Below are positions 1,209 through 11,666 of a DNA stretch of 64,000 nucleotides, piece after piece. The position numbers and the translations under genes were made by a program. A model generated the notes under the pieces. That model had not been told where the DNA came from and did not search any database. It saw nothing but the letters and a program-made list of their open reading frames with translations. The stretch is from Branchiostoma lanceolatum. Lineage: Eukaryota > Chordata > Leptocardii > Amphioxiformes > Branchiostomatidae. How positions within the stretch are numbered: position 1 is the stretch's first letter; each line of letters opens with the position of its first letter. The DNA is taken from assembly GCF_035083965.1 (NCBI RefSeq), contig NC_089738.1, positions 10,442,734 to 10,506,733 on the forward strand, given 5' to 3'.

Positions 1209-4200
1209 CTACCTTGCTACCCAAGGGTCTTGGTAATCCCCATCTCTTCTCGTATCTGACGAGGAATTCAAGTTGTTAGTTGGAGACAGTTGTGTTTGCG
1301 GTGGTCCTCTTGGACGATGCAGTCCTCCAGGTGGACGCTGGGCGGCGCTTGGTCCGTTACTGGATGGAGCAGCCTGTCTACTACCCGCCCGGATGTACGG
1401 GTCGACGCCACTCCCCGAGGACATGGATGAAGAAGATGCAGGTGGATTCTGCCATCCTCTCGGGCCTCCTCCTGCTTGTACATAAGGGTCTATACTGCTG
1501 GTGGAAGAGCTGGAAGGAGAGTCTACGGCGCCTACTGTGTTTGGAGCAGTACGGGGGGCTGGCGGTGGAGGCAAGGGGGTTGGGCGTCCTCCCGCTTGTA
1601 CATACGGGTCTATACTGCTGGTGGAAGAGCTGGATGGAGAGTCTATGGCACCTACTGTGTTTGGAGCAGGACAAGGAACTGGCAGTTGAAGCAATGGAGT
1701 AGCTGACACCACGTACGGATCAATGGAGCTCCCAGACGACATGGACTGGGTAGGGGGCGAGTTTGCGCTAGACGTTTGAAGAAGTGAGTTCGGAACTGGC
1801 AAACCAGTCACCCCCATTTGAGCAGAGGGGTTTGGGGGAGGTGCGATCGTGGTTTGTACATGTGGGTTAGGCCTGATGAACCCTTGGTTGAATGGTGGCG
1901 CCAGTAGAGGTAGACTTTCCGCTTGGACATACGGGTTGGACTGACCTTTGCATCCCTCTGGCATGAAACCCTCGTCGGCATCATCTTCACACGTACCGTC
2001 CGTTGCCCGTACGTAAGACTCGATTTCCGAGGATGTCGTCTGGTTGTCTGGCCAGCTCGCCACAGCTTGTCCCGGGTCTCGTATCTCTTGGGAAGGCCGT
2101 TGACTATCAGAGGACGCTTGTACATGTGAGTCGAAGGGATTTTTTTTCTGAAATGACACCGGGGAATCGAGCCGATACGTTTCGACCGGAACGTTGGACT
2201 GCTCTTCGTCGCCACCGGAATCCGTTATCAGCGAGCACGGTCCGGAAATGTTTCCGGAATCCGTGCTGGTCGGAGATGACGGCTCGTCATCTTTGTCGGA
2301 TCCGGAATCCCCCTTCTGCTGCGATATCACCACTTTCACTACGAGATCTTTGTCTGACTTCCAGCTCAACAATGTTTTCTTCTCATCCGTTTGAAAGGCG
2401 TCGTCGTCAAGGGACAAGGTGTCCGGAAGATTTTGGAGGGATTTGACGAACTTGCTCTTTTGGCGAATCACGTTGGTACGAATGGAATCGAGATCGTCCA
2501 TGCTCTCTTTGTTCCACGAACTTGAGATCGGCTCCAAAGAAGTGCTGTCCTTCGTCTCTTTGATTTCCACCTGGAAATAAGCATGCGTTTATTGATGAGT
2601 CAACTTTAAATATGAGACGGAGCTGTTGGTCTTTAGAGAGAGAAGTAATTGATAGAATAAATGAATTGATACAACAGTCAGTTTACCATGTATGATACTG
2701 TGTATGTGTGTGTGTGTGTGTATGTGTGTGTGTGCGTGTGTGTGTGTGTGTGTGTGTGTGTATGTGTGTGTGTGCGTGTATGTGTGTGTGCGTGTATGTG
2801 TGCGTGTGTGTGTGTGTGTGTGTGTCACTGTATGCAGTTCCAGCATTCGGTAGCCTAAAACGATGCTAACCTATATTTGCATGGCAGCCAGTGTAATCTA
2901 CGAAAGCTTACGAAATCGCGTAGTGTGCATTTTATATTTCACTGCTCTTCTATATATAAAACCTTTTCACAACGAGGCAGACACTTTGAACGCTCCACAT
3001 ATATGTAATACAGCGCCACCTACCAGGACAGGAGGAAGTACAATGTTGATTTTGCTGATGCTCAGGAACGGACTGCCTCTCATCCACAGGACCAGGACAC
3101 ACAGAACAACCAGCAGCACAACCACGGCGAGGATGGGCAGAACAGTCTGGACCAATGTGCCGGGATCTATGAGGGAATACAGTTTTGCAACATATTAGTA
3201 TAAAAAAGAGTATATAATAGTGTGTTTGACGTTTTTTACATCTCAGAGAACGAAGCCTTCGAATGACAAAAAATAAGATAATCACATGCAATACAAACAC
3301 TGATTTCATGAAAAAAAAAATTTGTGTATACTTATAATTAGTCTAGTACTATCAAGAATAGACAATGTGTAGTTTGGAATATATGCAGGATAATAGTTCT
3401 ACACATTTTGACACTGTCAAGTCTATATATGTTCTACGATCAGTCATAATGCATCATGTTGTTGTTTAAGGACAAAATTCTGACACTAGTATGACATCAT
3501 GATATTATACAACAGTAGCCTTACCAGCTGTTGTGGGCTGCGTCTGTGCATAGACTCCCAATTTTCTGGCGCATTCTCCAAACTCCACGTCAGCGGAGGG
3601 CAGCCGTGCCTTCACGCAGACATGGTACTCCGTCCCCGGCACCAGACCGGTCAGGTTCACGGTGGTGACGGAGCTCACACGTACGGGCGCAACCTCAGGG
3701 TCGTACTGGACCATGTACCCCTGTACGCAGGCGTCCTCTAGCGGACTCCAGCTGACCTGCATAGACGTTGATGACAGCGGTGCGACGCTTACGTTTGGAG
3801 CATACGGCGATGTATCTGGGGTAGAAAAGGGGCAAATAATGATTTTACTCTACATGATATATATTAGAGAGAGGAAGAGAGAGGAATAGAAAAAGAGACG
3901 GGGAGAAAGAGAAAGGGAGAGAGAAGACGACAGGAGGGAGGGAGAGAGAAGACGACAGGAGGGAGGGAGGGAGGGAGAGAGAGGAAGAGAGGGGGAGAAT
4001 GGAAGAGAAGAAGAGGGAGAAAGAGAAAGGGAGAGAAAAGAAGAGAGGAGGGAGAGAGAGGAAGAAAGAAAGGGAGAGGGGAGAGAAAGAGGAAGAGAAT
4101 GGAAGGGAGAGGGGGAAACTAAAGAAATTGAGAGAGAAGAGAGAGGAGGGAGAGAGTGAGGAAGAGAGAGAGGAAGGAGAGAACGAGAGAGACGGAGACG

Positions 4201-11666: not shown

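Follow-up and report, generated by a model that had tools for sequence, protein, structure and literature searches.

The ectodomain of class II cytokine receptors usually follows a plan of one or two D1-D2 units. A gene in the 64-kb window (the whole stretch of DNA analysed here) is predicted to encode a receptor that exceeds this plan by two generic FN3 domains after D2, and this raises the question of what kind of receptor it is and how the added domains came to lie between D2 and the membrane. We describe its domain families, predicted topology, exon phases and motifs as read from the sequence, and consider it likely that the product is a transmembrane class II helical-cytokine receptor in which two added general FN3 domains hold D1-D2 off the membrane.

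Structure of the receptor gene

Ten exons on the minus strand, running from 11666 to 1209, form a frame that is open from ATG to TAG and has a predicted length of 954 residues (Table 1). All nine introns have GT...AG ends, and their phases are, in order, 1-2-1-0-1-0-1-1-0. The preliminary description had claimed the span 1209..11666 for this gene; the ten exons fall exactly there, in-frame and separated by GT-AG introns. The G+C content is 0.466-0.598 in the exons and 0.299-0.483 in the introns, and the two ranges overlap only for exon 2 (0.466) versus intron 7 (0.483). Two polyadenylation-like hexamers lie 3' of the stop codon, at 354 and 192.

The predicted protein consists of a leader, four FN3-type domains with approximate bounds at residues 36-141 (D1), 141-248 (D2), 248-357 (D3) and 357-453 (D4), one transmembrane segment and a long tail. 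The predicted leader was judged by hydropathy, which is 2.06 over residues 1-19. The transmembrane stretch comprises residues 462-480 (hydropathy 3.55), and the tail comprises 471 residues from residue 484.

Table 1. Coordinates of the receptor exons and of other features in the 64-kb window
Feature	Position	Strand	Description
Exon 1	11561..11666	-	ATG, hydrophobic leader; ends in phase 1; donor AAG/GTAAG
Exon 2	10511..10628	-	First half of D1; ends in phase 2; Tissue_fac match crosses exon 2/3 junction
Exon 3	7101..7297	-	Second half of D1 with C94/C101 and RVRA...W; ends in phase 1
Exon 4	6209..6390	-	First half of D2; ends in phase 0; Interfer-bind match
Exon 5	5489..5627	-	Second half of D2 with C223 and C241; ends in phase 1
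Exon 6	4929..5014	-	First part of D3 (generic FN3); ends in phase 0; fn3 match crosses exon 6/7 junction
Exon 7	4220..4460	-	Remainder of D3; ends in phase 1
Exon 8	3525..3815	-	Entire D4 (generic FN3); single phase 1-1 exon
Exon 9	3024..3166	-	Transmembrane stretch and Box1-like LPPVL; ends in phase 0
Exon 10	1209..2570	-	Cytoplasmic tail, three DSG motifs, eight Tyr, stop
DSG motifs	2214..2309	-	Inside exon 10
Tandem 120-base duplication	1462..1694	-	Inside exon 10; 1.9 copies, 87% matches; holds two copies of the Tyr motif
Exon 5 donor read-through	5461..5489	-	Stop approximately nine residues on
Foldback repeat	6757..7032		Intron 3; 86% over 277 bases
Foldback repeat	4631..4900		Intron 6; 79% over 271 bases
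Foldback repeat	12648..12823		76% over 177 bases
Dispersed repeat	5242..5345		Intron 5
Dispersed repeat	7618..7715		Intron 2
Dispersed repeat	38752..38857		Distant copy
Cdc27/POLD3 exons	12811..18641	+	Upstream of the receptor gene
ORF	14796..15215		Between PF09507-matching exons; no Pfam match
von Willebrand factor C match	23158..23460	-	19.1 bits, below cut-off of 27.6
Two transporter-family ORFs	40898..42029	-	Sugar_tr 25.3 bits (cut-off 22.3) and 22.0 bits, just below
ORF	40097..40369		Similar in kind to the transporter ORFs by eye
ORF	47346..47693		Similar in kind to the transporter ORFs by eye

Junctions 2, 4 and 6 are supported by homology because Pfam matches cross them (Tissue_fac, 38-129, spans residue 75; Interfer-bind, 141-230, spans residue 201; fn3, 270-341, spans residue 276), and junction 3 is supported because the alignments to IL-20RA and IL-10RB cross the D1-D2 linker. 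Junctions 1 (leader), 5 (D2-D3), 7 (D3-D4), 8 (D4-transmembrane) and 9 (transmembrane-tail) were placed by splice consensus and frame only. In total, the gene structure is confirmed as a prediction from the sequence.

Junction 5 is also where two adjoining genes could have been wrongly joined, i.e. a soluble or unfinished D1-D2 receptor encoded by exons 1-5 and an FN3-transmembrane protein encoded by exons 6-10. In favour of two genes, this junction is without homology support, and intron 5 contains one polyadenylation-like hexamer. However, the two halves are on the same strand, are separated by a gap of only 474 bases (intron 5) and match in phase 1, and a Box1 candidate of the class II type lies on the FN3 side. 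Moreover, inspection by eye of the three minus-strand frames of intron 5 revealed no transmembrane exon, and the sole Met in frame into exon 6 sits in the acceptor tract without a convincing leader. Thus, we regard two separate genes as quite improbable.

Read-through of the exon 5 donor would yield a soluble D1-D2 protein; the soluble IL-22 binding protein is comparable in kind. A search with tblastn for a second copy of the receptor in the 64-kb window returned its own exons and three chance matches (E 6.8-10) only. A search of Rfam yielded 0 matches. The window also contains three self-complementary foldback repeats that resemble small mobile elements, two of them in receptor introns 3 and 6, and a dispersed repeat of approximately 100 bases with 74-84% identity among its copies.

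D1-D2 is a class II cytokine receptor module by sequence

In Pfam, D1 matched Tissue_fac (PF01108; E 2.9e-18; 66.1 bits versus a curated cut-off of 27) and D2 matched Interfer-bind (PF09294; E 1.8e-11; 44.7 bits versus a curated cut-off of 21), and no class I receptor family matched the protein at E up to 1. Similarly, a comparison of D1-D2 with the PDB gave 30 distinct sequence matches (E up to 10), of which 27 were class II chains and none was a class I chain; the three outside class II were Dscam and two monobodies. The best matches were IL-20RA (1.1e-14), IFNAR1 (2.6e-13) and IL-10RB (2.8e-13), followed by the IL-22 receptors, IFN-gamma R1, IL-10RA and IFNLR1, and weakly by IL-20RB (0.072 and 0.27); many of the weaker class II matches covered D1 only or mostly. 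No match named tissue factor, IFNAR2 or IFN-gamma R2 was present among the 30. A tissue factor orthologue was rejected because no tissue factor chain was found there; tissue factor lends its name to the Pfam family of D1, while the tail of the protein described here is 471 residues long and includes a Box1-like motif.

The motifs point in the same direction. From their positions in the sequence, the cysteines are predicted to form the pairs C94-x6-C101 in D1 and C223-x17-C241 (F-G) in D2. D1 contains RVRA at residues 117-120 together with W88 and W129, which align with the RVRA and W of IL-20RA. The class 2 markers of D1, i.e. R-L/V-R-A and the WRWR stack, were described with the structure of IFN-gamma R2 (extract of PMC5013595), and we counted the fit of RVRA and W88/W129 to these markers in favour of a class II D1-D2. 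By contrast, a motif scan detected neither of the class I motifs, which are WSXWS in D2 and the four-Cys motif in D1 (extract of PMC1963337).

The preliminary description had assigned D1-D2 to class II and had named a profile search as one way to refute this. The search placed D1-D2 inside class II, and the assignment stands on the Tissue_fac and Interfer-bind matches, the class II majority among the PDB matches and the absence of class I motifs. A class I receptor was rejected given the Pfam result, the lack of class I chains among the 30 PDB matches and the missing class I motifs. We conclude that, as judged from its sequence, D1-D2 is a class II cytokine receptor module.

Among receptors of the CRF2 group, IL-10RB, IL-20RA and IFNAR1 are alike to this receptor in the sequence of D1-D2, the cysteine pairs, the P and L of the candidate Box1 and the intron phase series, and in the PDB sequence alignment its D1-D2 linker resembles FSPVDDTIIGPPGMQV of IL-10RB. 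It differs from these three chains in having two generic FN3 domains after D2 and a long tail with repeated Tyr motifs.

D3 and D4 match general-purpose FN3 domains

D3 and D4 each matched Pfam fn3, with 47 and 51 bits, respectively, when searched alone. In the whole protein, D4 was matched by Pur_ac_phosph_N (31.1 bits versus a cut-off of 30), which we take as a cross-match within the FN3 fold, and D3 by the DSCAM C-terminal FN3 family below its cut-off. The earlier proposal of two extra FN3 domains between D2 and the membrane was borne out, fn3 being matched twice ahead of the transmembrane stretch.

To these domains the preliminary description had also ascribed a gp130-like, class I character. 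In the PDB comparison of D3-D4 (E up to 1; best 60 of 130 matches), the leading matches were receptor phosphatase delta (8.1e-13), Dscam (1.1e-10) and fibronectin (1.3e-9); gp130 was present in three rows, at best with 3.9e-4, and class II chains were absent. Thus, the best 60 of the 130 matches give no sign of a second D1-D2 pair or of a specific likeness to gp130, and the ascribed gp130-like character was not upheld. Altogether, D3-D4 is by sequence comparison made of ordinary general-purpose FN3 domains.

Four FN3-type domains are also found in tetrapod IFNAR1, whereas fish IFNAR1 has two (extract of PMC5332411), and D3-D4 could accordingly be imagined as a second, diverged D1-D2 pair; moreover, in each of D2, D3 and D4, two cysteines lie close to strands F and G (strands placed by eye). 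However, neither D3 nor D4 was matched by Tissue_fac or Interfer-bind in Pfam at E up to 1, both halves of IFNAR1 aligned to D1-D2 of this receptor while no class II chain aligned to D3-D4 among the best 60 of 130 matches, and D4 is encoded by one exon without an internal phase-0 intron. Based on the Pfam and PDB results for D3-D4, we reject a duplication of the IFNAR1 kind as extremely improbable.

In the class I receptors gp130 and Domeless, too, FN3 domains lie between a two-domain cytokine module and the membrane (extract of PMC1963337). In contrast to them, the receptor described here lacks WSXWS, the class I Cys motif and any class I match of D1-D2.

Intron phases fit an insertion of FN3 modules after D2

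Most IFN-upsilon R1 genes have the intron phases 1-2-1-0-1-0, a series said to be common to other interferon receptor genes (extract of PMC8863823). The phases of the receptor gene can be written as 1-2-1-0-1-[0-1-1]-0, i.e. the six published phases are present in order, with 0-1-1 interposed ahead of the sixth. This agrees with the earlier claim of a canonical 1-2-1-0-1-0 series with symmetrical phase-1 units between D2 and the transmembrane exon. Exons 6 and 7 together comprise 327 bases and exon 8 comprises 291 bases; both units are multiples of three and are bounded by phase 1 at both ends. Because of this, insertion or skipping of one domain, or of the two together, would leave the frame intact, and a two-domain isoform made by skipping the D3/D4 exons is possible from the gene structure.

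Generic FN3 units bounded by phase 1 are the usual substrate of exon insertion, and the phase pattern fits an insertion beside the phase-1 intron after D2. As for the order of events, we infer that both added domains most likely arrived on exon units of phase 1, inserted at the phase-1 intron that separates D2 from the transmembrane exon. The pattern 1-2-1-0-1 is also seen over the two-domain module of class I genes, for example IL2RG; therefore, the phases alone should be used neither for placing the gene in class II nor for dating the split between class I and class II, and the D1-D2 phases may not separate the two classes. The extract of PMC1963337 gives no phase data for class I genes.

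The preliminary description had left the choice between exon shuffling and an ancestral state that preceded the split. In the latter case, class I and class II would descend from a receptor that combined a two-domain cytokine module with FN3 domains; gp130, Domeless and this gene would have retained this arrangement, and the class II receptors of vertebrates would have lost it. The gene would then be a living relic of a stalked receptor ancestral to both classes, and the short ectodomain of vertebrate interferon/IL-10 receptors the outcome of later loss. The topological similarity of the Ciona gp130-like receptor and Domeless fits this possibility (extract of PMC1963337). So does the presence of gp130 among the D3-D4 matches. 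However, receptor phosphatase delta, Dscam and fibronectin matched D3-D4 far better than gp130, and insertion is the usual route for generic phase-1 FN3 units. We hold both the ancestral stalk and the status of the gene as its relic to be unlikely; of the earlier pair of proposals, the ancestral state found no positive evidence, and the insertion of generic FN3 modules is the likeliest explanation given their generic kind and phase-1 bounds.

Candidate signalling motifs in the cytoplasmic tail

The Box1 of class II receptors is PxxLxF, whose P and L are described as invariant among type II receptors (extract of PMC5394478). The Box1-like LPPVL occupies residues 497-501, approximately 17 residues past the hydrophobic stretch; P498-x-x-L501 is present and Glu takes the place of the favoured Phe. 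When the 50-residue juxtamembrane stretch was shuffled 20,000 times, LPxxL occurred within the first 25 positions in 1.5%, while the looser P-x-x-[LIV] occurred in 42%, so the Box1 is weakly evidenced and a candidate only. By eye, the juxtamembrane stretch contains no PxP, a motif named for class I (extract of PMC5394478). A PDB search with a 62-residue juxtamembrane stretch returned no solved receptor tail but six weak matches, all carbonic anhydrase 1, and an NCBIfam search with residues 1-542 only returned two weak matches of the bacterial type, far below cut-offs.

Farther along the tail are eight short repeated motifs, in order SHVQA, SYVRA, PYVQA, PHVQT, PYVVS, PYVQA, PYVQA and PYIRA, six with Tyr and two with His instead, a pattern picked by eye after the tail had been viewed. 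The consensus of the Tyr motifs, [DNE][PS]Y[VI]x[AS], differs from YxxQ. Two further tyrosines, 633 and 947, lie outside the motif, giving a total of eight in the tail. Between the copies of the tandem duplication, a 27-codon core has four synonymous and one non-synonymous codon changes, and the other 13 codons of the unit have two synonymous and ten non-synonymous changes. The contrast points to selection maintaining the core, although few changes were counted and the alignment of the flanks may be poor.

The three DSG motifs are at residues 589, 605 and 618, and one of them is a full DSGNIS. Of the shuffled tails, 1.0% had three or more DSG and 6.8% had one or more DSGxxS.

For the class II receptor family, a scheme in which ligand leads to dimer, JAK, Tyr and SH2 is established. 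By analogy, we infer a ligand, dimerisation, JAK/STAT coupling and degradation for the receptor described here as follows. A helical cytokine of the IL-10/interferon kind would bind at the D1-D2 elbow and pair two receptor chains; a JAK on the PxxL Box1 near the membrane would phosphorylate the repeated tail tyrosines; SH2 proteins, probably STATs, would dock on the phosphorylated [DNE][PS]Y[VI]x[AS] motifs; and DSGNIS may permit removal of the receptor driven by beta-TrCP. If the genome encodes no other class II chain, as a line from 2011 implies for amphioxus (extract of PMC3210801), homodimer signalling would follow; homodimer signalling has been argued for the Ciona gp130-like receptor (extract of PMC1963337).

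Neighbouring loci in the window

Upstream of the receptor gene, on the opposite strand, are exons of Cdc27/POLD3, a DNA polymerase delta subunit. PF09507 matched at this locus over profile positions 3-21 (22.6 bits, below the cut-off of 24.5), 329-387 (37.6 bits) and 387-443 (34.7 bits). Farther on, the weak von Willebrand factor C match is perhaps chordin-like. POLD3 and CHRDL2 lie side by side on human chromosome 11, and conserved POLD3/chordin-like synteny with human is possible. Two ORFs match the sugar/organic-ion transporter family; the two that are similar in kind by eye gave no transporter match in the profile search.

Relation to published receptors and implications

A class II receptor of amphioxus as such is already in print: a single line of PMC3210801 (2011; extract) credits Ciona and Branchiostoma floridae with one apparent class II receptor each. 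The amphioxus receptor, GI 260796075, was described there as having no apparent DSG motif. It is a possible orthologue of the gene described here, and the two differ in that GI 260796075 is without DSG and this protein has three, including DSGNIS (extract of PMC3210801). Either GI 260796075 is another gene or gene model, or the difference is one between species, or the statement in PMC3210801 needs revision.

Among the matches listed in a search of open-licence PMC titles and abstract starts, none described a class II receptor extended by FN3 domains, which is a weak indication of absence. In the extracts, amphioxus, lancelet and Branchiostoma do not occur in PMC3296744 (on JAK-STAT components), amphioxus has 0 occurrences in PMC1963337 (on class I receptors of Ciona and zebrafish), and an amphioxus class II receptor is not named in PMC5787515 or PMC13203501. 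A GHR-like class I receptor of amphioxus is the subject of PMC9010856 (extract).

The predicted layout is unusual for class II and bears on the evolution of immune receptors. Should the gene model prove correct, neither two domains nor a duplicated pair is a fixed plan for class II receptors, and a class II ectodomain can include a gp130-like spacer. If, moreover, the gene is that of an invertebrate chordate, as the preliminary description held, its candidate Box1, Tyr repeats and possible beta-TrCP motif would provide a handle on when signalling of the interferon/IL-10 type began, and also on whether turnover control predates what is stated in PMC3210801 (extract).
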